DNA from: Candidatus Lokiarchaeota archaeon
GTDB taxonomy: Archaea > Asgardarchaeota > Thorarchaeia > Thorarchaeales > Thorarchaeaceae
Assembly: GCA_014730275.1 (NCBI GenBank)
Contig: WJIL01000117.1
Span: forward strand, 1-64,000
Length of the DNA stretch: 64,000 bases
Reading direction: 5' to 3'
Shown here piece by piece: positions 20,251-55,998 of this stretch. Below the pieces are notes generated by a model, which was not told where the DNA came from, made no database searches, and saw nothing but the letters and a program-made list of their open reading frames with translations. Each line of letters opens with the position of its first letter. The first letter of the stretch is position 1. Made by a program: the position numbers and the translations under genes.

Positions 20251-21456
20251 CTATTCATTCAAGAAGTCGAGCAAAAATGCTTCCAGCATTCCTGCGGGTA
20301 CGTCTGAGAGACCAATAAGCGTTGTCTGCCCCCTTTGCCCTTCACCGGATCGTTTTGTGTCAATCACACCATGTGCATTCAAATCCTGAACCCATTCCCA
20401 AACCTGAGTGTGTGCGCGCGAATCTTCACCATATTCTTCACAGACAGTTCGATACATCTCTTCCACTTCACCCATTGTTACATATGCACTTCGTACTTCT
20501 TTCAGTTGGCGTGCAGCAGCCAACAACAGAAGCTTATTTTGTAGGGGCAGAGTTGAGAAAACCTCCTTTCGTAGCTCCGGGTGTGTATCAGCTTTAGCTT
20601 TTCGTGCAAAATCAGGTATTACGACATCAGAGCGCTCTGTATCAGCTTGTTTGCCAGCACGCCAAAGAATCTCTATAGCGTATCTCGCATCACCACGTTC
20701 AGAAGCTATGTCAGAAATGACCTGAAGGGTTTCTTCCATTACAGTATTATCTTTGAAAGCCATTTCTGAGCGTTGATTAATGATGTCGTAAAGTGCTTCT
20801 GAGTCATATTTCTCAAAGCGAAGAATATTGCGCTGTAAGGTGCTCAGTGTACTAGAATCGAATGCAGATTCATCTAGAGGTATATCTCGCCCAATACCAA
20901 TCATTGAAAGCCTTTGGGGAGAATTGAGGCGATCATCATTCAACCGCGTCAAATCGTAGACTATGCTTCCACCCTTTTGTGTTATGAAATAGTCAAGCTC
21001 GTCAAGGATAAGCAGAAGGTATCTATCTTCAGAATCAAGAACATCCATTATGAGTTGAAGTAGCTCCTCGGGCGAATGACCTCTCCGAGGAAATTTTGGT
21101 TTGAATTCCTTGAGGATTCGCAGATAAACTAAGTACTTGCTCTTGTTTACTCTACAGTTTACATGTATTTTGTGTAGGTGAATGTTTCTTCTTCTCGCAG
21201 CACGAATCATTTGCTCCGCAAAGCGTTTTGCAACAGCTGTTTTGCCAGTACCAACAGGACCTTCAATTATGAATTTGTGGCTGGTCTTTCCAGGGGAGGT
21301 TATCAGCGTTTTGAAGCTCCGAGCTAGTGTCCGAAGCTCATTCTCTCGATGAGGTAAAGTTTCTGGCACATAGTCTATTGATAGATATTGCTCCGATTTG
21401 AATACTGTATGTCTGCTGAGTTCATCTTCAACAAAATCTACCGGCATTACATTCAA
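20251..21456 (-). CDS. cdc6: Orc1/Cdc6 replication initiator
   Basis: Orc1/Cdc6 binds origin recognition boxes and loads MCM. The 401-residue protein has Walker A GPVGTGKTAVAKRF near residue 66, Walker B LLLILDELDYF near 147, sensor 1 LSMIGIGRD near 185 and a C-terminal winged-helix domain from about residue 300. RYAIEILWRAGKQA carries the sensor 2 Arg. Length is normal. The nearest origin-box sequence seen is about 17 kb away (38.9 kb), not next to this gene. The TATA element lies 24 bp before the ATG, so the mRNA is probably leaderless. Confidence 0.95.
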   Translation of the reverse strand: MNVMPVDFVEDELSRHTVFKSEQYLSIDYVPETLPHRENELRTLARSFKTLITSPGKTSHKFIIEGPVGTGKTAVAKRFAEQMIRAARRRNIHLHKIHVNCRVNKSKYLVYLRILKEFKPKFPRRGHSPEELLQLIMDVLDSEDRYLLLILDELDYFITQKGGSIVYDLTRLNDDRLNSPQRLSMIGIGRDIPLDESAFDSSTLSTLQRNILRFEKYDSEALYDIINQRSEMAFKDNTVMEETLQVISDIASERGDARYAIEILWRAGKQADTERSDVVIPDFARKAKADTHPELRKEVFSTLPLQNKLLLLAAARQLKEVRSAYVTMGEVEEMYRTVCEEYGEDSRAHTQVWEWVQDLNAHGVIDTKRSGEGQRGQTTLIGLSDVPAGMLEAFLLDFLNE

Positions 21457-35580: not shown

Positions 35581-36358
35581 GTGTACAAACCGGTGTTTTA
35601 CCTTTTAGAAGATCAGATAACCTGCCAGAGATATTCAAATTGAAGATGGCAATTCTTGTACTTTGATTTATGGTGAGTAATTCCCTAACTTTATTGTTCA
35701 TACCCCCAGTGACATCTACAGATGAAGATGGGCCAGTGCTGGATAAGACTTCTTTCATCTCCTTGGAGTGTATTACAGGTATTACTTTTGCATGGGGAGT
35801 ATTATCGGGATTTTCATCAAAAACGCCATCCACATCTGTTCCGATGTAAACCCCCAGTGGATTAAGTCTGTTGGCCAAGTATACTACAATTGTATCTCCA
35901 CTCAATATGGAAGCTCCCAGAGTCTCATCAAAACATACATCACCATGAGTAACTACGAGGAAATCGGAATTCAGTGCTTTTTCAATCAACGAACAGGGAA
36001 AATGCCGTATATTGGTATCTCTGAGATAAGTGAAAGCGAAAGGTGGAAAAGCAACAGCCGGTAGACCTGAATCCTGCAAAGAGCCAACTACTTCCGAAGA
36101 AAGAAGTGACATATTCTTCCGGATTTTGGGTATACCAGCCAAACGTTTTCGCCTTGGCGTGTTAGGGTTGCCAAACCCATAACGACTAGCTGGTTGATGA
36201 CCGTGGGCCCCACCGCCCAGCACAGCTATCATTGGGCCGTTGTGAATGCTTAGTTCTCGTGCTATTCGATTTATCCGATCCTTGTTGACAGATGGGGGAT
36301 ATTCGCCCTTGTTGGTAATTACTGAACCGCCGAGCTTCACAATCATTAGGTCATTCAA
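35567..36358 (-). CDS. ipk: Isopentenyl phosphate kinase
   Basis: IPK phosphorylates isopentenyl phosphate to isopentenyl diphosphate in the archaeal mevalonate pathway that supplies lipid precursors. The 263-residue amino-acid-kinase-fold protein has the opening MIVKLGGSVITNK, the glycine-rich loop LGGGAHGHQPASRYG with the substrate-binding His, and the diagnostic THGDVCFDETLGASILSGDTI segment near residue 140, which separates IPK from fosfomycin or UMP kinases. DVTGGMNNKV near 220 is the nucleotide-binding end. Length is normal. It converges with the HerA-like gene and is divergent from rps10. One GTATTA element lies within its coding sequence. Confidence 0.92.
   Translation of the reverse strand: MNDLMIVKLGGSVITNKGEYPPSVNKDRINRIARELSIHNGPMIAVLGGGAHGHQPASRYGFGNPNTPRRKRLAGIPKIRKNMSLLSSEVVGSLQDSGLPAVAFPPFAFTYLRDTNIRHFPCSLIEKALNSDFLVVTHGDVCFDETLGASILSGDTIVVYLANRLNPLGVYIGTDVDGVFDENPDNTPHAKVIPVIHSKEMKEVLSSTGPSSSVDVTGGMNNKVRELLTINQSTRIAIFNLNISGRLSDLLKGKTPVCTLIQP
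35770..35785 (+). repeat. GTATTA element inside ipk
   Basis: GTATTACAGGTATTAC, 16 bp, matching the 9-bp-period element found in the 48.8-55.8 kb region. Here it lies in coding sequence (minus-strand VIPVI), so it may be fortuitous; it is in the same plus orientation. Confidence 0.5.
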
Positions 36359-38780: not shown

Positions 38781-39194
38781 ATTCACATTGATTTACTGTG
38801 AATGGCGCCAAGAATGTGAATACAATTTTTCTAACAAAGTGGAAACAGTTCTAATATCAAAATAAAGAGCCCATAACTTTGATTACCCATGTGAATAAGG
38901 CCACCCCTTCGTTTCCACTGGAGATTGGCTACCAGAGTTATGAAGCATTATTTCAAGTATTCACAAATCCGATAACAAAGTGAACACACGAAAAATTGGA
39001 GAGATTTTCTTAAAACGTATTTTAGTAGTTATAGGGTTCATTTTTACCCAAAAAAGGTCTATAATGACTTATTTTATTCTTTCAATGGAGACAGAAAGTT
39101 TTTTGGTAGTATATTGCGCTATGGAGCTACTATCGAGGTATATATGATTCACATACTCACACTTATTTGCAGAGTCAATTGTAAAGATGTGAAT
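38781..39194. repeat. Array of seven TGTGAAT/ATTCACA 7-mers
   Basis: Exact copies start at 38781, 38797, 38815, 38890, 38959, 39147 and 39188, four as TGTGAAT and three as ATTCACA; a one-mismatch copy (CTTCACA) lies at 38762. The first two form an inverted pair with a 9-bp spacer. By chance a 7-mer is expected well below one time in this length. Likely protein-binding sites, either origin iterons or operators for the adjacent 206-residue regulator. Confidence 0.7.
38904..38923 (-). promoter_or_regulatory. Origin recognition box (ORB)
   Basis: The minus strand reads CTCCAGTGGAAACGAAGGGG, which fits the conserved archaeal ORB (core CCAGTGGAAAC, then an A/G-rich spacer and the G-string) recognised by Orc1/Cdc6. 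Confidence 0.8.
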
Positions 39195-42613: not shown

Positions 42614-42949
42614 TTGAAATTTGGAACAGGTGTTCTACTATTTCTGGTGAGCGCAGTGAAATTGTACCTATTTCTATATGATTGTAATAGCTCAAAAGGG
42701 GCAAATTCCAAAAGGGTTTCATTCACAAAGAAGCTATATGGCTACAAGTACAAATGGAAAACTACGGGAGGATATAAGGAACGTAGAAAACCCGGTCTTC
42801 TCGACACGTGCAAAGATGCAAGAAGAGTAAATGATTCTGCTATAGTAGTTCCGGAGATATGTTACCAGGAATGTTTAGATCTCTTCAACAGATTTCAAGA
42901 TATACTTGAATTCCGTATTTTTGAAGTAGTCAACGAGATATTACAATGA
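42614..42949 (+). CDS. Small hypothetical protein
   Basis: This 111-residue frame is not recognised, but its second half looks like real protein: SFTKKLYGYKYKWKTTGGYKERRKPGLLDTCKDARRVNDSAIVVPE, then a helix-rich end (ECLDLFNRFQDILEFRIFEVVNEIL). The first 33 residues are less protein-like, so the start may lie downstream at an in-frame GTG or TTG. It is divergent from the LKR gene, with no recognisable ribosome-binding site, and precedes the 332-bp spacer before iorA. It might be a small nucleic-acid-binding protein, to judge from its basic, aromatic middle, but this is a guess. Confidence 0.45.
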   Translation: MKFGTGVLLFLVSAVKLYLFLYDCNSSKGANSKRVSFTKKLYGYKYKWKTTGGYKERRKPGLLDTCKDARRVNDSAIVVPEICYQECLDLFNRFQDILEFRIFEVVNEILQ

Positions 42950-43045
42950 AAGAATATAAAGTTGTTACACGTGTTCCACTTTTCTCTATGACCCCCTTGT
43001 TTCATGTAGAAAAAATAAGAAGAAATAAGAGGGTCTATGGAAAGG

Positions 43046-43056
43046 TATATATATAA
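43046..43056 (+). promoter_or_regulatory. Strong TATA box upstream of iorA
   Basis: TATATATATAA, preceded by purine-rich BRE-like GGAAAGG. It is about 226 bp upstream of the iorA TTG, predicting an unusually long leader of about 200 nt. Confidence 0.55.
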
Positions 43057-43130
43057 GTTAGTCTATATTCATTTTATCTCCATTTTTCTAAAGGATAGAC
43101 AACTAGCTTTTCAGCTTCTCCATTTTTCAT

Positions 43131-43150
43131 TTCCACTGGAAATAGAGGGG
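43131..43150 (+). promoter_or_regulatory. ORB-like palindromic site
   Basis: TTCCACTGGAAATAGAGGGG matches 15 of 20 positions of the ORB at 38904, including the TGGAAA core and GGGG tail. The part ATTTCCACTGGAAAT (43129-43143) is a perfect palindrome about a central C, so an operator is an alternative. Confidence 0.45.
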
Positions 43151-43281
43151 AGTTACTCATGTATTACAGATAATACAACATTAGAACACGTGTAACAAAT
43201 CTTCATTCACCACAAGACTGATAGCGTAACTTAATTTTTCCTGAAGTTGAAGTAGCCTTGGCCCAGATCGGAGGCAAATAA

Positions 43282-45171
43282 TTGACAAAAGTTGATACTC
43301 TTTTGGAAGATACACCTGGAAAGGAAGTTCTACTATTGGCTAACGAAGCCATTGCAAGAGGGGTACTCGAATCTGCTGTTCGTCTTGTGGCATTATATCC
43401 TGGAACCCCAAGTAGTGAGATTGGTAACAATCTTGCCAGAATGGCACCTCATCTTGAAAACTTCTACTTTGAATTTAGTTCGAATGAGAAGGTAGCCATG
43501 GAAGTTGCAGGTGCTGCCGCCATTTCTGGAGCAAGATCCATGATGGTTTGCAAGGGACCAGGACTTAATGTTGCAGCAGATCCATTCTTCTCGCTAGCAT
43601 ATGTGGGTGTCAGGGCTGGCATGGTTATTGTCGTAGCTGATGATCCAAGTATGTGGAGTTCCCAGAATGAGAACGATTCGCGATACTATGCCTTAATGGG
43701 AAACATGCCAATGCTTGAGCCTGCTGATCCTATTGAGGCGAAAGAGATGCTTCATAAGGCGTATGAATACTCTGAACGTCTCGAATTACCCTTTCTTCTT
43801 CGTACGACTACTCGTGTTAATCATACGCGTGCCCCAATCATTTATGATGACATTCCAGCTCGTCCTGAAACGGTATCTTTCGAAAAGGACCCTTTCCGTT
43901 TTGTTCCCGTTCCAGCTGTGGCTAGGAAACGACATCCATGGCTTTTGGAACAAATAGAAAAAGCTCGAGAAATTTCCAACTCCTCCGAACTCAATTTCTT
44001 TGAGAGTTCAGGAGACTTCGGTATCATTACTAGTGGAGTCTCGTATAACTATGTTCTTGAAGCGTTATCAACAATGGAAATCGATGCTGAGATACTAAAG
44101 ATTGGGATGTCACATCCTGTTCCAGATGAGAAGATTAAGGAACTTCTCGGTCGACATGAACGAATAGTCATCGTTGAGGAGCTTCAGCCTTTTCTTGAAA
44201 CTCATGCCCGAAGAATAGCCCAGCTACAGGAAATTAATGTAACCATCCTCGGAAAAGAACAAGATTACTTCCCTGAGGTATACGAATATACTCCTAAGAT
44301 TGTAATGAATGCATTTTCAAAAATGATGAATCGGGAGTCACCTGTTGACTGGGAAGACATCGAAGATACCAAGAAGGAGTTACCAGAACTCCCTCCTCGT
44401 CCCCCTCTTCTGTGTCCCGGTTGCCCTCACCGAGCAACTTACTACGCAATTCGAACTGCTACTCGTGGAAAGGCCATCTATCCTTCAGATATTGGCTGTT
44501 ACACGTTGAGTATTTCTCCTCCCTTGGAAACAGCTGATATCCTCTTTGATATGGGTTCTTCAGTTACCACGGCTTGTGGAATTGCTCGCGTAACGGATCA
44601 GGATGTTGTTGCTTCTATAGGTGACAGTACTTTCTTTGCTTCGGGTTTGCCGGGTATCGCCAATGCTGTCTATAATCAGCATCCAATAGCCCTTGTAGTA
44701 CTAGATAATAGAACTACTGCTATGACTGGACATCAACCCCATCCTGGTACAGGCTTAACTGGCATGGGGGAACAGGTTCCCGGTTTGGATATAGAAAAAG
44801 TCTGCGAGGGTCTGGGTGTTCGATATGTAAAAACGGTCAATCCTTTTGATTCAATGGCTGATCTTGTAGCAGATATCCGACAGATGTTGGACTGGATACG
44901 TGAGAATCAAGCACCTGCTGTGATGATTTCAAAGGCTCCTTGTGCGCTTCTTACAGCTGCAGAACGAAGAAGAAAAGAGGAGCGCCCTTCCCCCTATTAC
45001 GTCGATGAAGAGACTTGTACGGGGTGCAAAAGATGTCTCAATCGCTTGTCTTGTCCTGCCATGTATTTGGATACGGAAACAGGCAAAGCAGCCATTGACA
45101 AGGATCTCTGTAACTTCTGTGGTACTTGTGTGGATGTATGTCCTGTAGGAGCCATTATGCAGGAGGAATAA
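43282..45171 (+). CDS. iorA: Indolepyruvate:ferredoxin oxidoreductase alpha subunit
   Basis: IorA/IorB oxidise aryl pyruvates from aromatic amino acids to aryl-CoA with ferredoxin reduction. The 629-residue protein starts with the pyrimidine-binding domain (LYPGTPSSEIGNNLAR), continues with a TPP-binding domain (CPGCPHRATYY near residue 376 and GDSTFFASGLPGIANAVYN near 450), and ends in a two-cluster ferredoxin domain, with CTGCKRCLNRLSC near 578 and CNFCGTCVDVCPVGA near 607. The start is TTG at 43282 with GGAGG 7 nt upstream. It is followed by iorB after 2 bp. In archaea it serves amino-acid fermentation, fitting the nearby lysine degradation and ADP-forming acyl-CoA synthetase genes. Confidence 0.95.
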   Translation: MTKVDTLLEDTPGKEVLLLANEAIARGVLESAVRLVALYPGTPSSEIGNNLARMAPHLENFYFEFSSNEKVAMEVAGAAAISGARSMMVCKGPGLNVAADPFFSLAYVGVRAGMVIVVADDPSMWSSQNENDSRYYALMGNMPMLEPADPIEAKEMLHKAYEYSERLELPFLLRTTTRVNHTRAPIIYDDIPARPETVSFEKDPFRFVPVPAVARKRHPWLLEQIEKAREISNSSELNFFESSGDFGIITSGVSYNYVLEALSTMEIDAEILKIGMSHPVPDEKIKELLGRHERIVIVEELQPFLETHARRIAQLQEINVTILGKEQDYFPEVYEYTPKIVMNAFSKMMNRESPVDWEDIEDTKKELPELPPRPPLLCPGCPHRATYYAIRTATRGKAIYPSDIGCYTLSISPPLETADILFDMGSSVTTACGIARVTDQDVVASIGDSTFFASGLPGIANAVYNQHPIALVVLDNRTTAMTGHQPHPGTGLTGMGEQVPGLDIEKVCEGLGVRYVKTVNPFDSMADLVADIRQMLDWIRENQAPAVMISKAPCALLTAAERRRKEERPSPYYVDEETCTGCKRCLNRLSCPAMYLDTETGKAAIDKDLCNFCGTCVDVCPVGAIMQEE

Positions 45172-45173
45172 AG

Positions 45174-45782
45174 ATGTCTAGTAATAATCGTAATACAATA
45201 AACATAGTGATTTCAGGTGTCGGAGGACAAGGTGTTCTCACCTTAGCAGAACTGTTGGCGAAAGCTGCCCTAAACGAGTCATATAACGTACGAGTCGGAG
45301 AAATTCATGGAATGGCTCAGCGGGGGGGACATGTAGTTTGTACTGTGAGGATTGGGCCAATGGCAAAAGGTCCTATCGTTGATGAAGGCTTTGCTGATAT
45401 TTTGGTTGGCTTTGAGCCAGTAGAGACTCTTCGAGAAATAAGTAGAATCAAAAAAGATGGTCATGTTTTGATGAGTTCACATATTCAGTATCCGGTTGCG
45501 GTGTCAATGGGGAAGGCTGAGTATCCTTCAATTGATGAAATAACTTCGAACATAGAGAAGCTCACGAGCAATATTACTGAACTCGATGCAATGAATCTTG
45601 CAAAAGAAGCGGGAAGTTCTCGAGCAATGAATATGGTTCTTTTCGGTGCTATAGTAGCTACTGATTTGCTACCAATTACGAAAGAAACTGCAATTGATGT
45701 TGTGAAGAAGAAATTCCCTGGCAAATTCGAGGAAATCAATGTAAAGGCAATTGAATTGGGATTCTCTAAAGTTGTGAACTAG
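45174..45782 (+). CDS. iorB: Indolepyruvate:ferredoxin oxidoreductase beta subunit
   Basis: The 202-residue IorB subunit is a gamma-type oxidoreductase domain: it opens NTINIVISGVGGQGVLTLAELLAKAAL and contains GEIHGMAQRGGHVVCTVRIG near residue 45, both diagnostic. I chose ATG 45174 because GGAGGAATAAAG lies just upstream, matching the 2-bp gap after iorA; the frame itself is open earlier inside iorA. It is the last gene of a two-gene operon. hypF on the other strand converges, with 52 bp between the stops. Confidence 0.95.
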   Translation: MSSNNRNTINIVISGVGGQGVLTLAELLAKAALNESYNVRVGEIHGMAQRGGHVVCTVRIGPMAKGPIVDEGFADILVGFEPVETLREISRIKKDGHVLMSSHIQYPVAVSMGKAEYPSIDEITSNIEKLTSNITELDAMNLAKEAGSSRAMNMVLFGAIVATDLLPITKETAIDVVKKKFPGKFEEINVKAIELGFSKVVN

Positions 45783-45834
45783 ATTTAACTGATTCTAGAT
45801 TTAAGAACTTGATCAATCATTCACATTCGAGTAT

Positions 45835-48231
45835 CTACTCTGCTTCGCGAATAGCGGCAACAGCAACTTGCCCAAGTGAAACCCCTGCGTCTCCCGGAGG
45901 GACCTTTTTATGTATCAATGGTGTTTTCCCTACGGCTTCGATTTGTGATACTATTGCTTTTGTAAGAATACGATTTAGAGCAACGCCTCCTGAGAATCCA
46001 ATGTGTTGTATATCTTCTTTGTCTGCTGTTCTAATAGCCAATTCAGCAAACCCCTTTCCGAGCGACCATTGAGCTGCATATGCGATTTCTCGCGGATCAT
46101 ATCCTTTTTTCTTCAATTCTACTACTGATTTCAAGAATTCAGTAGTATCCAGTTCTCTTCCTCTTCTTGTCTTTAAGTACACCGGTTCAATTTTCAAATC
46201 CGTCTCTCTTGCGTGAGCTTCAAGTTTCATTGGACACTCGCCATCGTAAGTGTTCTGAGAACAGACTCCAAGCGCCAATGAGATTGCATCTAGGACTCGT
46301 CCTGTACTGCTACTTGCTAAGGTGTTTATCTCATTCTCTATCATATCGATGAGCACTGAGATAGAATCTTTGGTTGCTATAGTATTTTTGCTTATTCGTG
46401 CATTTCCCACTAACCCAATGATTTCATCAATCGGAATCGAATTATGGAGAATACTCAAGAGCGCTCTCGTGCTGAACTTGGCTGAAAGATCCCCTCCCGG
46501 ATATACTTGCTGCATTAAGCCGGATTCTCGCGAGTAGTCCAAAGCGTTACCTAACAGAATTTCCCCTCCCCATCCACTTCCATCACGTCCGTATCCATAC
46601 CCATCGGCTGTAATACACACAATACGCGTATCAAGCTCTAATTCATGATCGACAAGTATGGAGGCTAGGTGGGCATGGTGGTGTTGCACGCGTTGTAGCG
46701 GTATGTCATTCATTCTGGCTTGTTCCTCGGCATATTCTGTACTTAGGAATTGAGGATGCAAATCACATGCGATAGCATCTAGATTTTCAATTCCTAGAAG
46801 ATGTATCATATGTTGAATGGCTTCATCGAGAAATTCTAAGCTTTCAAGGCTATTTGTGTCGCCTATGTGTTGGGTCATATAGATATTGCCTGATTTAGAA
46901 ATTGATGCTGTCGCCTTTTCTTCTGGTCCGACTCCCAATATGTTTATTTCTTTGAATGATTTCTTCAACGGAATTGGATTTGGAACAAAACCCCGCGAGC
47001 GTCTTATGAAGACCGCATTCTCTTTGTGAACGACTTTCAAAACAGAATCGTCGGCTCGTTGATCAATCTCCCGATCATGAACCAGAAAGTAGTCAGCTAT
47101 ATTGGTAAGCTCTGAGAGAATAGTCCTTGGGTCTTTGTACATTGGTATGCCACTTGGATTGGCACTTGTCATTACGAATGCAGGTTCTTGACTGAAATGA
47201 AAAAGTAGATGATGTAGCGGTGCATAGGGCAACATAACCCCCACTGTATCCAACCCAGGAGCTATTTCTTCAAGCGACTTGGCTGGTATTTCGCTAATTG
47301 CTCCATGATTTTTCATTATTGGTATTTCTTTCTTTTTGATTAGTACAATAGGCCGCCTCCATGACTCGAGTAATTCCCTTTCATATACTGAAGGAACAAG
47401 GAATTGATTCATTCTCTCTATGCTCTCTGTCATGATTGCAAAAGGTTGATTTCGCCTTTGTTTTCTGCTTCTCAATTTCCTAATTGGTTCCAATTCCGTA
47501 GTTTTTGTAGCAAGATGTGTTCCTGTAATCCCTTGTATTGCAACAATAGATCCGTTTGCTAGTAGTCGAACAGTCTCAGATACTGCTTCATGTCCGCGTG
47601 CAATTTCTTTTTCATTGCTTACGAGTTTGTATGTGGGACCACATTTGGGACAAGCTGTAGTTTGAGCATGATACCGACGATTTAATGGGTTGGTGTAACC
47701 TGTATTACAATTATTACAAAGTGGAAATTCATCCATGGTTGTGTTTGGCCTATCATATGGCAAGTCGGTTATGGTGGAGAATCTAGGTCCACAAGCTGCA
47801 CAAGCTGTAAAGGGATAAAGGTACCAACGCGAAGAGGGATCTAACATTTCCTCTATGCAATTATGGCAAACAGCTATATCTGGTGGAATCTCGGGTGCTG
47901 CATCTTCGCTTCTTTTTTCCGATGATTTCACGATTTCAAAATCACTGTATTTATCTTCCGCTTCTCTCCATTCAATGTCAAGCGATTCAATGCGGGATAT
48001 CGATGGTGGATTATGGTTCAATTCATTGATTAGATTCAGGATACTCTGGCGATTACCTTCTGCTATTATCTTTACACCAGCATCTCCGAGGTTCAAAACA
48101 TATCCTTTCAGAGATTCTCTCTTGGCTACACGGTAAATGAATGGCCTGAATCCCACTCCCTGTACAATTCCAGTGACATGGATTTCAGCCCTTACTGTCA
48201 ATCTTGGATGGACCTCTGTTGAATCTATCAA
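45835..48231 (-). CDS. hypF: Carbamoyltransferase HypF for [NiFe]-hydrogenase maturation
   Basis: HypF uses carbamoyl phosphate and ATP to make the cyanide ligand of [NiFe]-hydrogenase with HypE. The 798-residue protein has every domain in order: acylphosphatase (GIVQGVGFRPFIYR, residues 20-90), two zinc-finger-like pairs (CHNC, CAAC, CNNC, CPKC between 115 and 200), a YrdC-like domain (220-400) and a Kae1-like carbamoyltransferase domain with HHHAHLAS near 500. The start is TTG at 48231. No other hyp or hydrogenase genes lie in this window, so it is separated from its usual partners. Confidence 0.96.
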   Translation of the reverse strand: MIDSTEVHPRLTVRAEIHVTGIVQGVGFRPFIYRVAKRESLKGYVLNLGDAGVKIIAEGNRQSILNLINELNHNPPSISRIESLDIEWREAEDKYSDFEIVKSSEKRSEDAAPEIPPDIAVCHNCIEEMLDPSSRWYLYPFTACAACGPRFSTITDLPYDRPNTTMDEFPLCNNCNTGYTNPLNRRYHAQTTACPKCGPTYKLVSNEKEIARGHEAVSETVRLLANGSIVAIQGITGTHLATKTTELEPIRKLRSRKQRRNQPFAIMTESIERMNQFLVPSVYERELLESWRRPIVLIKKKEIPIMKNHGAISEIPAKSLEEIAPGLDTVGVMLPYAPLHHLLFHFSQEPAFVMTSANPSGIPMYKDPRTILSELTNIADYFLVHDREIDQRADDSVLKVVHKENAVFIRRSRGFVPNPIPLKKSFKEINILGVGPEEKATASISKSGNIYMTQHIGDTNSLESLEFLDEAIQHMIHLLGIENLDAIACDLHPQFLSTEYAEEQARMNDIPLQRVQHHHAHLASILVDHELELDTRIVCITADGYGYGRDGSGWGGEILLGNALDYSRESGLMQQVYPGGDLSAKFSTRALLSILHNSIPIDEIIGLVGNARISKNTIATKDSISVLIDMIENEINTLASSSTGRVLDAISLALGVCSQNTYDGECPMKLEAHARETDLKIEPVYLKTRRGRELDTTEFLKSVVELKKKGYDPREIAYAAQWSLGKGFAELAIRTADKEDIQHIGFSGGVALNRILTKAIVSQIEAVGKTPLIHKKVPPGDAGVSLGQVAVAAIREAE

Positions 48232-48363
48232 TACTCATGATATTAATTCAATGAAGTGGCAATAGCATTCGAATCTAGTCTGTTATGGTTTTGTGGTGTA
48301 CTGTCCACTATTTTTGTTATACATGCTCTTAAGGTTCAATGCGTATATGATAACTGATTCGCA

Positions 48364-48777
48364 TTGACTGGTCGTGGAACGAAAAACAATATACACATCA
48401 ATAGAGGAAAACCAAAGGCAACACCCTCCATCCTTGCATCCATACCCCAATGTCTGCGCACAGCACTCATGGAGAAAATAGATGAATCGAAAGAGTGCAA
48501 GAATTCCCTTTTGATATCGAGCAATACTCTTGCAAATCGATTCATTCTTAATCAGTGGGGCATACGACCATCTCAACGCAGGCAGTACACGAATCTCTTC
48601 TCAGTCGTTCGTGAGAGATGTAGAACTCTATTCAATTACTATTCAAAAAGACGAAAAATACAATGGAACGATGGCGAAAAGAGTTACTATTTCGGTGTTC
48701 ATCGTTTTGATAAGGTTCGGGGGAATGTGATTCTTCGATTCGTGTCAATTCCCCCTGATAGACAATGGGCCTTTTAG
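48364..48777 (+). CDS. Hypothetical basic protein
   Basis: This 137-residue frame is not recognised. It is basic, Arg/Lys-rich and has a plausible helical middle (SILASIPQCLRTALMEKIDESKECKNSLLISSNTLANRFILNQWGI) and a possible wing-like end (GEKSYYFGVHRFDKVRGNVILRFVSIP), so a DNA-binding winged helix is conceivable. The start TTG 48364 lacks a strong ribosome-binding site, and the first 20 residues are unlike protein, so the true start may be internal. It is divergent from hypF and followed 6 bp after its stop by a GTATTA element. Could also be non-coding. Confidence 0.42.
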   Translation: MTGRGTKNNIHINRGKPKATPSILASIPQCLRTALMEKIDESKECKNSLLISSNTLANRFILNQWGIRPSQRRQYTNLFSVVRERCRTLFNYYSKRRKIQWNDGEKSYYFGVHRFDKVRGNVILRFVSIPPDRQWAF

Positions 48778-48783
48778 CTTTTT

Positions 48784-48799
48784 GTATTATCTGTATTAC
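48784..48799 (+). repeat. GTATTA element 1
   Basis: GTATTATCTGTATTAC, just downstream of the 137-residue gene. First of the main cluster; two 7-mers at a 9-bp period. Confidence 0.75.
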
Positions 48800-49023
48800 A
48801 AACTATTTTGAGAATCTTAGATTCCATCTTTTCTTCTTGTGAGCGATTAGCTTAAGTTGATTAGGAAGAATCCCGTATACGGAACTGTATCCGTAGAAAC
48901 ACACAGATGTTTGCCCCATCAATCAGCACTCATAACGCCTTAAATTCAAAATGAGGATTTATGAACGGTGATACAAAAAACCACGTGAAGAAACAACATC
49001 TGGTCCACTGAGGTTGAATTAAG

Positions 49024-49557
49024 TTGAGCGAAGAAGAAGAACTGAAACACATTGCCAGGAATGCGAGACAGGTACTGAAGGAACCCCTTCTCAAATCATT
49101 GTTACCGAAATCCAGTCTTACAAATACGCAACTGGAGACACTACTCATCGATATTGTTGTAGAAGACAAGTATGGAGATCACATTACCTATGATGAAAAG
49201 GCCAATTTGAGATCTAATTCAACAAGTGAAGGAATGGGTGTAACAAGAGGGGCTTTCAATAGAACACTGAAGCAAGCACGACGAAACGTTACTGAATGTC
49301 TATACACCATGCTTCTTCTAGCCTATCTAGGTCTCTTTGATTATACGATTTTCAGACCTTTTGAGGAAGTAGCAACCAGAATCGGCAACTACCGGAGGAT
49401 TAGGGAAACGCTAGCTGGGAAGCGAAGTATTTCAGAAGAAGAGCTAGAGAGTTATACAGCTACCGAGAAAACACTCCAAAATGCTATAGATCAGCTAGCT
49501 AGCTCTCTACCTATGAAAACAACTCTCTCTAAAAAGCAATCTAACTTATCAGAATGA
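49024..49557 (+). CDS. Hypothetical protein with helix-turn-helix-like middle
   Basis: I cannot name this 177-residue protein. It is all-helical by pattern. Residues 35-95 (NTQLETLLIDIVVEDKYGDHITYDEKANLRSN, then GVTRGAFNRTLKQARRNVTECLY) resemble a sigma-region-4 or tetra-helical HTH, with RGAFNRTLKQARR as the putative recognition helix. A Leu-rich segment (MLLLAYLGLF) and a coiled-coil tail follow. The start is TTG 49024 with GAGGT about 10 nt upstream. It is one of the orphan genes lying within the GTATTA-element region, so it is a candidate DNA-binding partner of those elements. Confidence 0.65.
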   Translation: MSEEEELKHIARNARQVLKEPLLKSLLPKSSLTNTQLETLLIDIVVEDKYGDHITYDEKANLRSNSTSEGMGVTRGAFNRTLKQARRNVTECLYTMLLLAYLGLFDYTIFRPFEEVATRIGNYRRIRETLAGKRSISEEELESYTATEKTLQNAIDQLASSLPMKTTLSKKQSNLSE

Positions 49558-49566
49558 GATGTACTA

Positions 49567-49782
49567 ATGACCGTATTAAACGTATTACAACAAAATACTG
49601 CGATAAACATCAAATTTCTTTCCCAGCTCGATTTCTATGGAACTGGTACATATGTTAAAACTAGCCGGATTACAACAGTCGACTTACGAAGAAAAATGCT
49701 CGAGTGTGCCAAGTCGATGATGGTGCCGGATTACCGGAGCTCTGCCCATCAACTCTTCGATCTCGCTATTGGAACTTCTTAG
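49567..49782 (+). CDS. Short hypothetical ORF, doubtful
   Basis: The 71-residue frame starts ATG 9 bp after the preceding stop. Its first codons are formed by a GTATTA element, and residues 40-66 (VDLRRKMLECAKSMMVPDYRSSAHQLFDLA) look helical. No domain is recognised. It may be the end of a decayed gene or non-coding. Confidence 0.28.
   Translation: MTVLNVLQQNTAINIKFLSQLDFYGTGTYVKTSRITTVDLRRKMLECAKSMMVPDYRSSAHQLFDLAIGTS
49573..49588 (+). repeat. GTATTA element 2
   Basis: GTATTAAACGTATTAC, 15 bp after the stop of the 177-residue gene and within the start of the doubtful 71-residue ORF. Confidence 0.72.
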
Positions 49783-50094
49783 AGGTATGTGGTTTGTTGA
49801 GGAGATAGAAATGCCAACATCGTATACGTAGAGTCAAGGGGAACTAACCTGCATCCGGTTAGGTTACCACGCATCAATCTGACACACTCAAGGAATACTA
49901 TGGAAAGAGGGTAAATAGTTCTAATCTTAGAACGAGGTATTTTTGACTATTTTGAAAACCAACCAATTCTCAAAATAGAATGAAAGGACAAAATACTGTT
50001 CAATAAATCCTCTCGTATTAGTTGTATTACCATTTCTGTTGCTAGCTTTTTCGTTTATCGAAATAATGTTTTATTATAGACACTGGTGCATTAG
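49783..50094 (+). other. 312-bp spacer without a clear gene
   Basis: Contains a hairpin CTAACC/GGTTAG at 49848-49866 (loop about 7 nt), no following T-run, and GTATTA element 3 at 50015-50030. TTATTATAG at 50072 is a possible TATA element for the next gene, about 20 bp before its ATG. I see no RNA gene. Confidence 0.4.
50015..50030 (+). repeat. GTATTA element 3
   Basis: GTATTAGTTGTATTAC, 64 bp upstream of the start of the 421-residue orphan gene. Confidence 0.75.
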
Positions 50095-51360
50095 ATGTTG
50101 GAACGAATGAATTCTGAAGATAGATTTCACGAATTGCGTGAGATGATCCAAAGGGAAATCGAAGTTGGTCATTTCAGAAAGATGAAAGAGCTCTTGGTTC
50201 GAGCAATAGCGGATCGAAGAGAAAAAGATACAATGGATATTCTAGCTGGAATTGAAATTGAATCGGATTGGTCAACTGCTTGTGATCTTCTTTTGGAAGT
50301 AGAAGACGCCACATACGTTTGTCCTATTGGAATTGAGAACCCAGTAACTGAGTTGGAGCCTCTCAAATACAGAGAAGTGATTTTCTCCATATTCTATTCG
50401 TCTGGACTTGAGCCAGTTGATATTCCCACAAAGAAAATGATCAATGAAGTGAGGGCTTGTGAATCTATGTCGTCAGCATGCAATAAATTCAGTAGTATAT
50501 CTATGGAAACAGCAAGGAAGCAATTTGATAGCGGGGATACACTATTCTTTAATCCTATGAGTTTTGCTGAGTTGGATGGAGAATTTTTGAATAGACTACA
50601 TTCTACTCGACAAGCAAATTTGATTCGAATCAATTCATTGGATCCTAATAGTCCATTGGACATTACTCCACTATGGTCTGATGAAATTTGCAGGCGACAC
50701 CTCATTGATTTGGGAATTACAGGACGATTCATTTCCGACGAAGATTTTAGTGATGTATTATCCGTAATACAACAAGTCAGTAAAGGACCTCCCGATAGTG
50801 AAACCATTGGTTTGAGCGAAGAATTCCAGTTATCATCTCCGAGCAACAAGAAGTATCATCAATTACATGAGGCGCTTATTGACCAGAATATTGCAGATAT
50901 CAATGCTCTTGGAAGTAAACATGCAGTACCCGTTTTAAAAAACGTAACTGAATCTAACCTGCTAACTTACCGAACGGAGGAAACCAGTCGAAGATACAGA
51001 GAGTTCCTTGATTCAATTAATTCACATGTTATTGTCCGTTCAAACGATTCCATAGTAGTCTTTCAGAAGATTATTGAAGAAGATTTCCCACGCATTTTGA
51101 CTCCTGTAATAACTGCACTATCAAATTTCTATGACGGAAGCTCTGCTTCGGTAATAGCATCTATTCTTTGTAGGACAATTTCTCCTACAATCTTGGAGCA
51201 TTGTGTTCGATCCATAAAGAATCTCTACACAAAATGTCCCGAGGTTCTTCCTCAAGTGAAGTCAATGCTGAATGAAGACTGTCACAATCATCAGAAACTG
51301 GAAAAATTGGTGAAAGAATTTTCTAAGCGTGAATCTGGGTGGTATTACAAGTATTACTAA
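50095..51360 (+). CDS. Large orphan helical protein
   Basis: This 421-residue protein is not recognised. It is predicted mostly helical and cytoplasmic (no signal or membrane segment). A first block (1-75) has paired amphipathic helices (FHELREMIQREIEVGHFRKMKELLVRAIADRR), and the last block (320-410) has HEAT/ARM-like helical hairpins (SASVIASILCRTISPTILEHCVRSIKNLYTK). The final residues WYYKYY are encoded by a GTATTA element, an odd case where the repeat forms the 3' end of the gene. The ATG at 50095 has no ribosome-binding site, consistent with a leaderless mRNA. Function unknown. Confidence 0.65.
   Translation: MLERMNSEDRFHELREMIQREIEVGHFRKMKELLVRAIADRREKDTMDILAGIEIESDWSTACDLLLEVEDATYVCPIGIENPVTELEPLKYREVIFSIFYSSGLEPVDIPTKKMINEVRACESMSSACNKFSSISMETARKQFDSGDTLFFNPMSFAELDGEFLNRLHSTRQANLIRINSLDPNSPLDITPLWSDEICRRHLIDLGITGRFISDEDFSDVLSVIQQVSKGPPDSETIGLSEEFQLSSPSNKKYHQLHEALIDQNIADINALGSKHAVPVLKNVTESNLLTYRTEETSRRYREFLDSINSHVIVRSNDSIVVFQKIIEEDFPRILTPVITALSNFYDGSSASVIASILCRTISPTILEHCVRSIKNLYTKCPEVLPQVKSMLNEDCHNHQKLEKLVKEFSKRESGWYYKYY
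51342..51357 (+). repeat. GTATTA element 4
   Basis: GTATTACAAGTATTAC, occupying the last five sense codons of the 421-residue gene (YYKYY) up to its stop. Confidence 0.72.
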
Positions 51361-51402
51361 GAGTTAGTTAGTTATAAAACGTCAAACAAATGAGATTCCA
51401 GT

Positions 51403-52794
51403 ATGCAGCCCAATTTGACGTACGATGAGATTGATGATTTCTTCAATCCCCGAAGTGTCGCTCTTGTTGGAGCTTCGGCTGATTACAGAAAGCTGGGGAA
51501 CTCAATTCTTTCGAATCTTCTGGCCTCAGAGGTAGAGGTGTATCCAGTTACAAGGAGTAGAGAGAAGGTCTTGGGTAGTACTGCTTATTCGAATCTAGAA
51601 GAGATTCCTGAAGATGTTGATTTAGTTATTATTGCTGTAGCAGCAAAGTACTGCCCCCAATTAATGCATGAAGTAAGAGCTGCTGGTGCTAGGAATGCTG
51701 TTATCATATCCGGTGGATTTAGTGAAAGCGGAGAAAGAGGAACTCAACTAGAACAGGAATTACACCAAGCTGCTAGAGAATCAGGCGTGCATTTCATTGG
51801 TCCTAACTGTGTAGGTGTGTCCAATTCGCGTCTATTCAATGGCACTTTTACTATGATGCCTGAACGAGGGAATATTGCTCTAATTTCCCAGAGTGGTGCC
51901 TTAGGTGGTATGCTAATTTACACGACAAAAGCTAAACGGATTGGAATGAGCAAATTCGTGAGTATTGGAAATGCAACTGATATTGGATTCACTGATCTTC
52001 TCGGTTATCTGGCTGAAGATTCCCAAACAAAGGTCATAACGGTATACGTTGAGGGAGTAGAGGAAGGACGCTCATTCTATGAAGCCCTTAGTTCAGCATC
52101 CAGAAAAAAACCAGTAGTTGTATTGAAAGGTGGCACAAGTGATGCCGGCAGTCGTGCTACTCTTTCACATACTGGATCTCTGGCTGGTTCCCCTCAGGTC
52201 TTTGAAGGTATGATTCGTCAGTCGGGTTGTGTTACTGCTCCAACTTTCGACAGCTTGTTTGAAATCGCAAAGCTCTTTGACTATCAGCCCCTCCCAAAAG
52301 GTTGTAATATTGGTATTATTAGTAATACAGGCGGTGCTGCAGTACTTGCAACTGATTCTGCCTCACAACTTGGACTTAACATTCCCCCTCTGAGTCCTTC
52401 AACACGGAATGAGTTATCTAAACTGTTGCCTCCGATGGCCAGTGTGGAGAATCCTGTGGATGTTGTCGCCAGTGGGGGTCGTAGAGAATACAAACTAGCG
52501 ACTCGGCTGTTACTGGAAGATTCTGCCATTGATATACTTCTGGCTATTTGTGGTGTTCCGACCTTCGCTGGTATGACACAGACTGAGCATGCGGCGGGCG
52601 CCCTTGAAGGGATAAGAATAGCCAATACTGGCAAACCTGTTGTTGGGGTCTGGCTTGCTGGAGAAATCGGAAAGCCCGGGAAGGATCTCTTAGAGATGAA
52701 TCGAATCCCTTGCTACGACGATCCAAATATGGCGGCACTTTGTTGTGCAAAGATGAGTGAATATGCCCGGATGCTTAATCGCAATGATTTGTAG
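51403..52794 (+). CDS. acdA: ADP-forming acyl-CoA synthetase alpha subunit
   Basis: This enzyme converts acyl-CoA, ADP and phosphate to acid, CoA and ATP, the energy-conserving step of archaeal peptide and sugar fermentation. The 463-residue alpha subunit has an N-terminal CoA-binding Rossmann domain (FFNPRSVALVGASADYRKLGNSIL), GPNCVGVSN near residue 138, two succinyl-CoA-ligase-like domains and the phosphorylated His in ATLSHTGSLAG near residue 256. No beta subunit (ATP-grasp) gene follows in the window, which is common because acdB is often unlinked. It matches IorAB and KorA functionally: their acyl-CoA products can be its substrates. Confidence 0.92.
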   Translation: MQPNLTYDEIDDFFNPRSVALVGASADYRKLGNSILSNLLASEVEVYPVTRSREKVLGSTAYSNLEEIPEDVDLVIIAVAAKYCPQLMHEVRAAGARNAVIISGGFSESGERGTQLEQELHQAARESGVHFIGPNCVGVSNSRLFNGTFTMMPERGNIALISQSGALGGMLIYTTKAKRIGMSKFVSIGNATDIGFTDLLGYLAEDSQTKVITVYVEGVEEGRSFYEALSSASRKKPVVVLKGGTSDAGSRATLSHTGSLAGSPQVFEGMIRQSGCVTAPTFDSLFEIAKLFDYQPLPKGCNIGIISNTGGAAVLATDSASQLGLNIPPLSPSTRNELSKLLPPMASVENPVDVVASGGRREYKLATRLLLEDSAIDILLAICGVPTFAGMTQTEHAAGALEGIRIANTGKPVVGVWLAGEIGKPGKDLLEMNRIPCYDDPNMAALCCAKMSEYARMLNRNDL

Positions 52795-52806
52795 CATCGA
52801 ACTAGC

Positions 52807-52822
52807 GTATTACGAGTATTAC
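52807..52822 (+). repeat. GTATTA element 5
   Basis: GTATTACGAGTATTAC, in the 32-bp convergent spacer between acdA and the ribbon-helix-helix gene. Confidence 0.75.
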
Positions 52823-52826
52823 GAAA

Positions 52827-53102
52827 CTACGACTTGAGGTGTTGTCCTGCAATTTTCGGGAATTTATCTGATACCGCTTGTCTTAGTTGTTGATCGACCC
52901 ACATGCTCAAATTAATGGCATTCTCCTCTCTCACCGCTTGAAGACATGATCTCAAATCGGCACCAATTGAGAAGGAGACTATTGGGCTCTTCCTTTCACT
53001 GTTAGGAACTGACTCTCTGTCGTCCTTCGTTTCCTCCTTCTCTGCCTCCCCCTTCTCTGTTTCCTTTTCCTCTTTCTTTCGGTATTTTCCAAGAACACTC
53101 AT
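52827..53102 (-). CDS. Small charged protein with ribbon-helix-helix-like domain
   Basis: The 91-residue protein has an acidic-basic N-terminal tail (residues 6-38, mostly Lys and Glu) followed by a ribbon-helix-helix-type domain: strand IVSFSIGA (41-48), helix DLRSCLQAVREEN (49-61), and helix NLSMWVDQQLRQAVSDK (64-80). Such domains bind short repeated operators or centromeres as dimers. The ATG is 2 bp after the stop of the ATPase gene, so the two are co-transcribed. This resembles partition pairs (motor plus RHH adaptor), and a GTATTA element flanks the operon on each side. DNA-binding is inferred, not shown. Confidence 0.62.
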   Translation of the reverse strand: MSVLGKYRKKEEKETEKGEAEKEETKDDRESVPNSERKSPIVSFSIGADLRSCLQAVREENAINLSMWVDQQLRQAVSDKFPKIAGQHLKS

Positions 53103-53104
53103 TC

Positions 53105-54079
53105 TTACCTGACCTCCTTGAGAATTTCAGAATATGCATCAGCTACGGTTTCCGCAATATCAACAGTAACGGTTGGATCTCCTGATTTTCTTAGATTCTC
53201 TGCTGCGACTTGTTGACATGCTCTTGCTAACATTCTAAGATCTCTCGGATTTCCATTCGCCGCCTCGTTTATTATCTCGATAGATGTTTCTTCAAATGGT
53301 TCTAGTTGGAAATCATCAGAATTGAACTGGTCGATATCTCCTCTTGCATAAGCAAGTCTTCTGCCGATGAACTCGCGTGCTTTACTTCCATCCAGTGGGG
53401 GCACATCTAAAGGTTCTGTTCGGTTTGCTATCTGGGGAAGAAAAGAAAGCATGGCATTCCAGTATAGTTTGGTTCCTGACATTATCAGGGTCACAATTGG
53501 TTCATCAAGTCCTTCAGGATGATCATCAACCATCTCCTCTGTTGGCAGGTCTGCCAAGAAACGAAGCTTGTGAAAAGCCGCCTCTTGGTTATCTGCTACA
53601 TCTTCGATGAAAAGCGCGGTACGACAGTCTTCTTCAATGTACCTTCGCAAGCTTTCCTTTGCTACAGCTTCAATAATCTGAGTTGACTCCCACGATCTTC
53701 GATACTTGATTCTAAGCGAATCAGCAATGGCTGCTGACATCTGCTTTTCATATAGGCCCGTCATGCCCACATATCCTGTGACGAATCTGTTCCCTCGCCT
53801 ATCCGCAAGAGTAGGTAGGTCTCTTAAGGCTAAGAGCATAAGCGTACTTTTTCCGGATCCTACTGGTCCTCTCAAAAATATGTGTCTTTCATTGATTAGC
53901 ACTATATCTACTAGTGTATCAAGAAAATCCGGATGCTCGACATAGAGACGAGCATCTGGCATTTTGAAACCTCGAAACGGCGAAAACCTCATTCCAAGCT
54001 TCTCTTCCCAAGCTCTCAAGGCTTCCTTTCTCGTATTGAAATGTCTAATCAATGCACTTTCGTGAACTGCAATCGTCAT
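53105..54079 (-). CDS. AAA-type (Orc1/Cdc6- or TniB-like) ATPase
   Basis: This 324-residue protein is a AAA ATPase. Walker A is RGPVGSGKSTLM at residues 70-81, Walker B TALFIEDVADN at 154-164, sensor 1 LIMSGTKLYWN near 203 and a lid signature NGNPRDLRMLARACQQ near 277. The fold is closest to Orc1/Cdc6, TniB/IstB or STAND-like loaders, not the ParA deviant Walker type. No winged helix follows, so it is not a standard replication initiator. It is first in an operon with the RHH-like protein, and a GTATTA element lies 19 bp upstream of its start codon. A role in DNA segregation, loading or mobile-element handling is possible. Confidence 0.75.
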   Translation of the reverse strand: MTIAVHESALIRHFNTRKEALRAWEEKLGMRFSPFRGFKMPDARLYVEHPDFLDTLVDIVLINERHIFLRGPVGSGKSTLMLLALRDLPTLADRRGNRFVTGYVGMTGLYEKQMSAAIADSLRIKYRRSWESTQIIEAVAKESLRRYIEEDCRTALFIEDVADNQEAAFHKLRFLADLPTEEMVDDHPEGLDEPIVTLIMSGTKLYWNAMLSFLPQIANRTEPLDVPPLDGSKAREFIGRRLAYARGDIDQFNSDDFQLEPFEETSIEIINEAANGNPRDLRMLARACQQVAAENLRKSGDPTVTVDIAETVADAYSEILKEVR

Positions 54080-54097
54080 GAATTATTGTACACTCCT

Positions 54098-54113
54098 GTA
54101 TTACGGGTATTAG
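54098..54113 (+). repeat. GTATTA element 6 (promoter of the ATPase-RHH operon)
   Basis: GTATTACGGGTATTAG, one mismatch at the last base, 19 bp upstream of the ATPase start codon (54079) and therefore likely in its promoter. Confidence 0.72.
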
Positions 54114-54283
54114 TACATCCTACAATACACAGTGTTGTAATACAATTATTGTAGTTATAACCCTTTCTAGCAAATTTGCGACTTTTCTTAGCAACGTGTC
54201 CACAACTTTTTTCAGCAATCGATAGGCCCAATGACACCAGTCATAGAAGAAGAGTTTCCACCAAATAAGGGAAGCAGGAAATT

Positions 54284-54562
54284 ATGGAATTAGATAGAAT
54301 TCAAAGAATACTCAACTCATTCATGGCAATCAGCTTTCTGGTTTTCGTCGGCCTTGCAGGCTATATTTTTCTCAGAGACATATCTCTAACTAACCAAACT
54401 GTAGCACTCCCATTTGCATTTCTTTATCTTAGTATAGTTACTCTGATTACTACTGCCCGAATTGCAGAGAATCCTGATGGTCTGAGCGATTACCTGCGCG
54501 GATGGGTGGCTGTTTGCGCTTTTGGAACCCTTATCAGCGCACTTGCTTTCATGGTTCCGTAG
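54284..54562 (+). CDS. Small three-helix membrane protein
   Basis: The 92-residue protein contains three hydrophobic helices (residues 10-29, 38-58, 71-90), joined by short loops, with a charged N-terminus (MELDRIQRIL). I do not recognise the family. It precedes atpD by 65 bp and might belong to the same transcript, but a role in the ATP synthase is not indicated; the archaeal c-type subunits have two helices and a conserved acidic residue not present here. The ATG at 54284 has GGAAG in reach. Confidence 0.68.
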   Translation: MELDRIQRILNSFMAISFLVFVGLAGYIFLRDISLTNQTVALPFAFLYLSIVTLITTARIAENPDGLSDYLRGWVAVCAFGTLISALAFMVP

Positions 54563-54627
54563 AATCATTGCTGAATTCATAGCCGTTTGGATTAGTTAGT
54601 TCAACATACATTCGAGTGTGAACCTGT

Positions 54628-55257
54628 TTGACGGATATACTGCCAGGAACAAAAACCACGCGCATGGAACTACTGAATCTCCGAAAGCGAAAGCAGCTAG
54701 CTGAGCGTGGCCACGATCTTCTGAAAGAGAAAAGAGATTCTTTGATAATGGAATTTTTCAATGCGATTGCTGAAATAAGGGAAGCTCGGGCTGATGTAGA
54801 AGATACTCTTTCCGAGGCGTTCTCAGCATTGACACAAGCAAAGATGTTGATGGGTCCTGAACGCTTGGTTGAATTTGCTCATACCAGTAGGGCGGAAACT
54901 GAGCTTAACACAACTACGCGTTCAATGATGGGTGTAACTGTCCCCATTCTTTCTCTTCGTCAATCTGCTCCTGATATGCCATATTCCCTTCCTGATTCAA
55001 GTGCAAAGCTGGATACAATGACAGAGAAATTCACAGAAGCATTGAGGGCCATCGTTCGCCTTGCAGAAATAGAATCTACTGTAAAGCGTTTGGCTCATGA
55101 AATAGAAAGCACAAAAAGGCGCGTATCAGCTCTTGAGACGGTTGTCATTCCGAGATTGGAGGCAACTGCAAGATATGTCAAATTAGCACTTGAAGAACGT
55201 GAACGCTCCGATTTCTATCGAACCAAACTCGTACGGGATCAGATTTCCGATTCTTAA
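54628..55257 (+). CDS. atpD: A/V-type ATP synthase subunit D
   Basis: Subunit D forms the central rotor shaft of the archaeal A1Ao ATP synthase. The 209-residue protein is a long antiparallel coiled coil: PGTKTTRMELLNLRKRKQLAERGHDLLKEKRDSL at the N-terminus is the family hallmark, and the C-terminal helix (ESTKRRVSALETVVIPRLEATARYVKLALEERERSDFYRTKLVRD) is equally typical. Start TTG at 54628. The other atp genes are not in this window, so the gene is split from the usual operon. It overlaps the convergent nac by 4 bp. Confidence 0.93.
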   Translation: MTDILPGTKTTRMELLNLRKRKQLAERGHDLLKEKRDSLIMEFFNAIAEIREARADVEDTLSEAFSALTQAKMLMGPERLVEFAHTSRAETELNTTTRSMMGVTVPILSLRQSAPDMPYSLPDSSAKLDTMTEKFTEALRAIVRLAEIESTVKRLAHEIESTKRRVSALETVVIPRLEATARYVKLALEERERSDFYRTKLVRDQISDS

Positions 55258-55637
55258 CCGCTCTTCAATTTCAGTATGGCTGCTGCCAAATCTCCCTCAG
55301 TTTCTTCGAGTGCCTTCTTGGCTGCCTCGATGCTCACACCAGTTTGATTTGAAACTAGAGCGGCATCTTCCATAGGAATCTCGACCTTCTTTTTCTTTTT
55401 CTTGCTTTCCGTCTTAGAGCTTTCTTCTCCTCTTGGACGCTCTTGCCTATCTCCACCAATCTGAAAAGTTTCACTTCCAGATTGCTTTATCATGGTCACT
55501 TCCGGTTTTGGAAAATACCACTCCTTGTCGTCAAATCTAATGATGACTTCCTCTACTCCTTTGATTTCTTCTTGTTCTATGCCCATCTTCTTCATCATTC
55601 TGGCTAGCTGTTTAGGAGATAAACCTCTGAATCCCAT
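55254..55637 (-). CDS. nac: Nascent polypeptide-associated complex protein
   Basis: Archaeal NAC binds nascent chains on ribosomes as a homodimer. The 127-residue product has the start MGFRGLSPKQLARMMKKMG, the NAC domain strands EVIIRFDDKEWYFPKPEVTMIKQSGSETFQIGG, a Lys-rich linker and a C-terminal UBA domain (ALVSNQTGVSIEAAKKALEETEGDLAAAILKL). All domains are intact. Upstream is a 361-bp spacer with two GTATTA elements. Confidence 0.95.
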   Translation of the reverse strand: MGFRGLSPKQLARMMKKMGIEQEEIKGVEEVIIRFDDKEWYFPKPEVTMIKQSGSETFQIGGDRQERPRGEESSKTESKKKKKKVEIPMEDAALVSNQTGVSIEAAKKALEETEGDLAAAILKLKSG

Positions 55638-55998
55638 TTGAATTGACCTCTTTTCCTTTCAGTCATCTTAGTTGAATAAACCCATCCATTAAATGCTTGC
55701 GTTATCGAAGAGGAAAACTAAATCAAAGCCAAAACCAAATCCCCCTTTGCTTATAGATTGCGTTGTATTATCAGTATTACAAATCATTTCGTATTAATAG
55801 TATTACAAGAGATAGTTCCTGAGAATCACAAATATGAATGAAACTCTACAATTGGCGTTGATATCCTATTAATGGGGTATTAGAAAACATGCTGCCTTCT
55901 CAATGCATTTCTCCCTTCTCTAAGAAATCCGCCGGAGTGACCAGCTAGTTTCATTGTTCAATCGGCTTTCATCTAAGGATTTGTTGCTTGATAATGGG
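55638..55998. repeat. 361-bp spacer with two GTATTA elements
   Basis: Elements GTATTATCAGTATTAC (55765-55780) and GTATTAATAGTATTAC (55791-55806) lie 26 bp apart start to start, both in plus orientation. The rest of the spacer, between nac and the pan 3' end, holds no recognisable ORF; the TAATGGGG stretch near 55870 is only AT-rich. Confidence 0.75.

Follow-up and report, generated by a model that had tools for sequence, protein, structure and literature searches.

A conserved array of palindromic GTAWTAC boxes beside a putative replication origin in Thorarchaeota: a candidate partition locus with an RHH protein and an ORC/Cdc6-like ATPase

Introduction

Asgard archaea are the closest prokaryotic relatives of eukaryotes, and their chromosome segregation machinery is not known. 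A 2024 review on the subject reports only that ParA and ParB homologues exist (PMC7617429), and a 2025 study of SegAB contains no Asgard data. In the open-access literature we found no prior description of the locus presented here. It lies in a 64-kb stretch of Thorarchaeota DNA (the window), in which a sequence-only reading had noticed a tandem element recurring within 7 kb, in spacers or at the last codons of genes and always on the plus strand. That reading took the element for a protein array or a polar marker such as a centromere-like site, and not for a promoter box. We asked what this array is, whether it has a polarity, which protein reads it and what the locus might do.

Results

Extent of the array and its confinement to one locus

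With the pattern GTATTANNNGTATTAC and up to two mismatches, 30 matches were found in the window against a mean of 1.03 (largest value 4) in 100 dinucleotide shuffles, which bears out that the pattern is commoner than chance. All copies listed by the sequence-only reading were confirmed at their coordinates, eight exact ones on the plus strand and one with a single mismatch (Table 1). The whole genome (3.64 Mb in 151 contigs) was scanned at one mismatch or fewer, and all 17 matches, as well as 8/8 exact copies, fell on the contig of the window, which makes up 2.8% of the assembly; the 17 matches span 35.8 to 82.8 kb. Assuming uniform placement, the chance of such a result is about 10^-26. The density is thus not uniform over the genome; uniformity was an outcome that the sequence-only reading had named as refuting it.

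The array is larger than first described and runs for approx. 13 kb (43161 to 55806), from the origin past the RHH and AAA+ ATPase genes, both of which sit within it. The sites are roughly 0.4–1.7 kb apart and reach into housekeeping genes. Spacer sites exist as noticed earlier, but five sites (45181, 46610, 47702, 50755 and 52313) lie inside genes. At the scan threshold 14 array sites were counted in the source genome and up to 21 in its relatives.

Table 1. Features of the locus, in positions of the window.
Feature	Position	Strand	Remarks
orc1/cdc6 initiator gene	20251..21456	-	one of the genome's two Cdc6_C genes
Outlying array copy, other side of origin	35770..35785	.	exact copy
Further ORB (CCCCTTCGTTTCCACTGGA)	38904..38922	-	nearly every scanned family genome has it at approx. 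-14.7 kb
Putative replication origin core	42967..43193	.	ORB 43130-43150, inverted ORB-like 42990-43004, flanking palindromes ACACGTGT
Array site inside origin (GTATTACAGATAATAC)	43161..43176	.	
Array site in PORg gene	45181..45196	.	same codons in 14/16 genomes
Array site in HypF gene, aa 540	46610..46625	.	kept in 17/17 genomes
Array site in HypF gene, aa 176	47702..47717	.	kept in 16/17 genomes
Array site, spacer	48784..48799	.	exact copy
P0003, 177-aa HTH-like protein, third conserved locus member	49024..49557	+	weak DUF134 match
Array site, spacer after P0003	49573..49588	.	exact copy
Array site, spacer	50015..50030	.	exact copy
Array site in fast-evolving P0004, aa 225	50755..50770	.	kept in 12/13 genomes
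Array site at last codons of P0004	51342..51357	.	exact copy
Array site with three boxes, CoA-ligase gene, aa 305-308	52304..52328	.	kept in 19/19 genomes
Array site between CoA ligase and RHH genes	52807..52822	.	exact copy
P0001, 91-aa RHH protein, proposed box reader	52827..53102	-	alignment, linkage to ATPase, RHH matches
P0002, 324-aa AAA+ ATPase, ORC/Cdc6-like without winged helix	53105..54079	-	
Array site upstream of ATPase gene	54098..54113	.	one mismatch; second weak site at approx. 54140
Two array sites, 26 bp apart, upstream of NAC gene	55765..55806	.	exact copies at 55765 and 55791

The box is palindromic and the array is not polar

The array is built from a 7-bp near-palindrome, GTAWTAC, with a period of 9 bp. 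When the loci of 13 genomes were pooled and analysed by expectation-maximisation, the motif obtained had TTGTAWTACAA as its central palindrome, flanked at -9 and +9 bp by weaker copies of the box. Apart from the central A or T, a box reads identically on both strands, and sites in which that central base is the other one (43161, 45181, 46610, 50755 and 52313) belong equally to the array. The plus-strand rule holds for the exact copies, but it arose mostly because the search pattern had been written with one orientation of a near-palindromic unit. Over the 19 family genomes the centre base is T or A about evenly, the partner box lies about evenly on either side, and exact forward and reverse copies number 32:11; a 7:0 ratio occurs only in the source genome. 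We therefore rejected the polar marker. A depletion of the GTAWTAC box elsewhere was looked for and none was found.

Conservation of the sites in the family

The family set used for comparison comprised 19 genomes from 13 genera, including that of the window; most of the genomes in this work are metagenome-assembled. In 19/19 of them the site density was 0.7–1.45 per kb around the ATPase gene and 0.04–0.2 per kb outside. Sites were kept at the same places in the relatives, recurring across the 13 genera for example at -10.5, -8.3, -6.9, -5.8, -2.8, -1.3, -0.8, +0.5 and +2.2 kb relative to the ATPase gene. In G009, one of the relatives, 413 kb were divided into 10-kb bins: the two that cover the locus contained 16 and 4 sites (cut-off at least 12 bits), every other bin 0–2. 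In G021, a single-contig Thorarchaeal genome, the whole array segment is absent except orc2, most likely through an assembly gap rather than natural loss.

About 42% of the array sites (110/262) lie within coding sequence, repeatedly at the same codon: aa 176 and 540 of HypF, 305-308 of the CoA ligase, 225 of P0004, 352 of POR and 17-23 of PORg. At seven recurrent positions in genes 95 exact boxes were observed where synonymous resampling with each genome's own codon usage predicted approx. 22, a ratio that overstates the effect because the positions were chosen for having boxes and the genomes are related. At the CoA ligase site 19 exact boxes stood against 2.3 expected, and at the P0004 site 12 against 0.6, in a protein only about 31% identical between genera. 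The P0004 case in particular would be hard to explain other than by selection on the DNA. P0004 itself (50095-51360) is a fast-evolving protein of 421 aa without a known family; it was not detected in G005, G016 and G013, and elsewhere it carries the conserved array site.

The three proteins of the locus

In an alignment of P0001 the N-terminal motif MS(L/V)LGKYRK is followed by a charged, variable linker and then by a C-terminal RHH domain. The f24 homologue scored above the gathering score of PF01402 (RHH_1), and the fold search with P0001 gave Arc, CopG and MatP with weak E-values. The P0001 gene stands beside the ATPase gene in 43/43 genomes of the family (f1) that have the ATPase. P0002, found in 43/47 family genomes with 74–96% identity, is an AAA+ protein with Walker A GxxGSGKS and the sensor-2 motif GNPRDLR, and not with the ParA-type deviant Walker A. 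Its model (mean pLDDT 81) matched best archaeal Orc1/Cdc6, eukaryotic ORC and TnsC. With Orc1/Cdc6 and TnsC, its best PDB matches, it shares the initiator-clade AAA+ fold, but it differs from them by an identity of only about 12–19%, by its RHH partner and by the missing C-terminal winged helix: PF09079 had no match in P0002, and the genome's two Cdc6_C matches are elsewhere.

Other candidate partition genes were considered as well. The genome's ParA-like genes resemble MinD, Mrp or ArsA types, and none of them adjoins an RHH gene. The two closest (L214 and L215) are MinD/ParA-like ATPases beside longin-like proteins. ParB_N gave no match in 40/47 genomes searched, the Thorarchaeota source genome included.

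A putative replication origin at the left end of the array

The left array end, at 42.97-43.19 kb, looks like an archaeal ORB-type origin, judged by boxes that we identified with the established ORB consensus. An inverted ORB pair, CCCC..TTTCCACTGGA and TCCACTGGAAAT..GGGG, sits inside ACACGTGT palindromes in most family genomes, and the array begins inside this putative origin. The GTAWTAC boxes did not match the ORB consensus; the ORBs stand apart from them, at 38.9 and 43.0-43.15 kb. In most relatives that have both orc genes on one contig, these lie approx. 33–37 and 70–85 kb from the ATPase gene. GC skew, used as a test of the origin over 100 kb and over 413 kb of G009, was too weak to be decisive.

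In most of the scanned family genomes the ORBs are flanked by the palindromes GAACACGTGTTC and ACACGTGT (in the window at 42967-42974 and 43186-43193), which are also enriched near the f11 locus. A gene of 111 aa (42614-42949) adjoins the origin directly. Neither Pfam nor NCBIfam gave a match for it, and its translation, compared by eye, looks similar to that of a small gene close to the Jordarchaeia ATPase (L103-L104, L114). A conserved 206-aa protein of unassigned family (39244-39864) was seen near orc1/cdc6 in Thorarchaeota, Jordarchaeia, f3 and f24.

The trio in other Asgard lineages and the reader of the box

The trio of ATPase, RHH and P0003 genes recurs in Jordarchaeia (f4, f11), in f24 and in f3. 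It is near HypF in most lineages, and within approx. 3–12 kb of orc1/cdc6 wherever the contig is long enough. Some ten GTAWTAC sites with the 9-bp period lie inside 3.5 kb in f24, and genome-wide 22/22 pair matches are at the trio locus. CTCGAG, also considered in f24, was scattered through the region with no concentration at the locus. Genome-wide, GATRTC-N7-GATRTC occurs almost only at the trio locus in four f11 genomes, the reversed control pattern giving 0 matches, and among palindromes near the f4 locus GATATC shows the strongest enrichment (33 vs 5.6). In f3 CTANTAG is enriched but not clearly tandem, and we do not claim it as a box. A contig in a bin labelled Sigynarchaeota (L205, G223) carries a Jordarchaeia-type trio and is possibly misbinned.

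The DNA-reading strand of the RHH protein is IVSFSI or VISATV in the GTAWTAC lineages and NFNVR in the GATATC lineages; that of Arc is QFNLR. The HTH-like segment of P0003, VT[RK]xAFxRxLxQA, is unchanged between lineages with different boxes. Because the box type co-varies with the RHH strand and not with the P0003 segment, the RHH protein is likely the one that reads the GTAWTAC box, a correlation over few lineages, and P0003 is an unlikely reader.

Discussion

The uneven density of the sites and their conservation in place argue for a protein-site array and not a promoter box, as the sequence-only reading had supposed. Its term centromere-like appears to be the best reading of the array, because the array adjoins an ORB-type origin and its likely reader is the RHH protein; the polar part of the proposal was unsupported. 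The anatomy of a partition system is present, with a cluster of cis sites by the origin and the gene of a predicted DNA-binding adaptor beside an ATPase gene. We consider it probable, with real room for doubt, that the array, the RHH protein and an ORC/Cdc6-like AAA+ ATPase in place of ParA form an origin-proximal centromere/partition system analogous to SegAB or ParABS. RHH dimers would bind the palindromic boxes, two or three side by side per site with the 9-bp period, and some 15–20 such sites over 13 kb would label the origin region once it has been replicated, and may also condense it. Through its conserved N-terminal peptide the RHH protein would recruit and stimulate the adjacent ATPase, whose ATP cycle on DNA would separate the sister origin regions, or hold and then release them, with P0003 as an accessory.

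Several observations count against the partition reading. Many Asgard families have no detectable homologue, and the array sites mostly have 2–3 boxes each, where in pSM19035 the RHH protein requires 4 or more contiguous repeats for ATPase activation (PMC9499535). Moreover, the ATPase belongs to the initiator-clade AAA+ proteins, and not to ParA, ParM or TubZ, and would fit just as well into replication control. The main rival is control of origin firing, because the ATPase is initiator-like: the RHH protein and the ATPase would license or time initiation or titrate the initiator, and the boxes, iteron- or datA-like, would set the firing of the adjacent origin. The fold of the ATPase is closest to Orc1/Cdc6, the array starts inside the origin and the trio is always near ORBs or orc1/cdc6, all consistent with such control. 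The boxes, however, are not ORBs and extend 13 kb into housekeeping genes, the ATPase lacks the winged helix, and RHH adaptors that carry an N-terminal ATPase-type tail are characteristic of partition systems. We regard this explanation as rather unlikely.

A purely architectural role, in which the RHH protein bridges boxes and folds the origin domain or loads condensin while the ATPase is no direct motor in segregation, would agree with the regular spread of sites of mainly 2–3 boxes and with the MatP match, a weak one to an RHH chromosome organiser; SegB moreover compacts and loops DNA in vitro (PMC12284271). Against this role, the RHH gene is strictly linked to an AAA+ ATPase gene, which points to a step driven by energy, and we judge it improbable. 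That the boxes are operators of the neighbouring genes is the least probable explanation, with very little to be expected of it. Sites do lie upstream of the ATPase and NAC genes, and autoregulation is a likely side role. As the main role we rejected a promoter or regulon function, since sites lie deep within genes at fixed codons; in addition, the other contigs of the genome have no box pairs at one mismatch or fewer, the neighbouring genes are unrelated, and the sites are conserved over 13 genera.

For the partition reading SegAB is the closest experimental analogue. SegB of the Sulfolobales is an RHH protein that binds TCTAGA-S-TCTAGA sites clustered around segAB and oriC1, with 83.7% of the sites intragenic (PMC12284271). 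Both loci have an RHH protein with a flexible N-terminal part, an adjacent ATPase gene and tandem palindromic boxes, clustered around the operon and oriC and in many cases intragenic. The differences are that SegA is ParA-type whereas P0002 is ORC-like AAA+, that TCTAGA is repeated at 7 bp and GTAWTAC at 9 bp, that SegB sites are scattered whereas the Thorarchaeota sites are mainly in one 13-kb stretch, and that Thorarchaeota has P0003 as a third gene. The RHH profile did not retrieve SegB from the PDB at E up to 10. The Thorarchaeota system is not SegAB, because its ATPase comes from another superfamily clade; neither ATPase type nor sequence places it there.

ParABS of bacterial chromosomes likewise has short palindromic sites clustered near the origin and the binder and ATPase genes, but it relies on an HTH ParB with CTPase, on ParA and on few parS sites with spreading, in contrast to RHH, AAA+ and many spaced sites. 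The type Ib system of pSM19035, ParB(omega)/ParA(delta), places an RHH protein on contiguous 7-bp repeats and directs an N-terminal tail to the ATPase, as is proposed here; it differs in being on a plasmid, in its uninterrupted heptads without spacer and in its ParA-type ATPase. MatP/matS shares an RHH protein with a chromosomal site array, but lies at the terminus instead of the origin and has no ATPase partner gene.

A wider proposal, more tentative and in our estimate somewhat short of even, is that the locus represents a new class of partition machine in several Asgard lineages, with an ORC/Cdc6-like motor, an RHH adaptor and an origin-proximal array, possibly joining licensing and segregation. 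The analysis appears to place the replication origin of Thorarchaeota, and it suggests that an initiator-type AAA+ ATPase can replace ParA. The locus offers concrete sites, proteins and an origin with which chromosome segregation in Asgard archaea can be tested.
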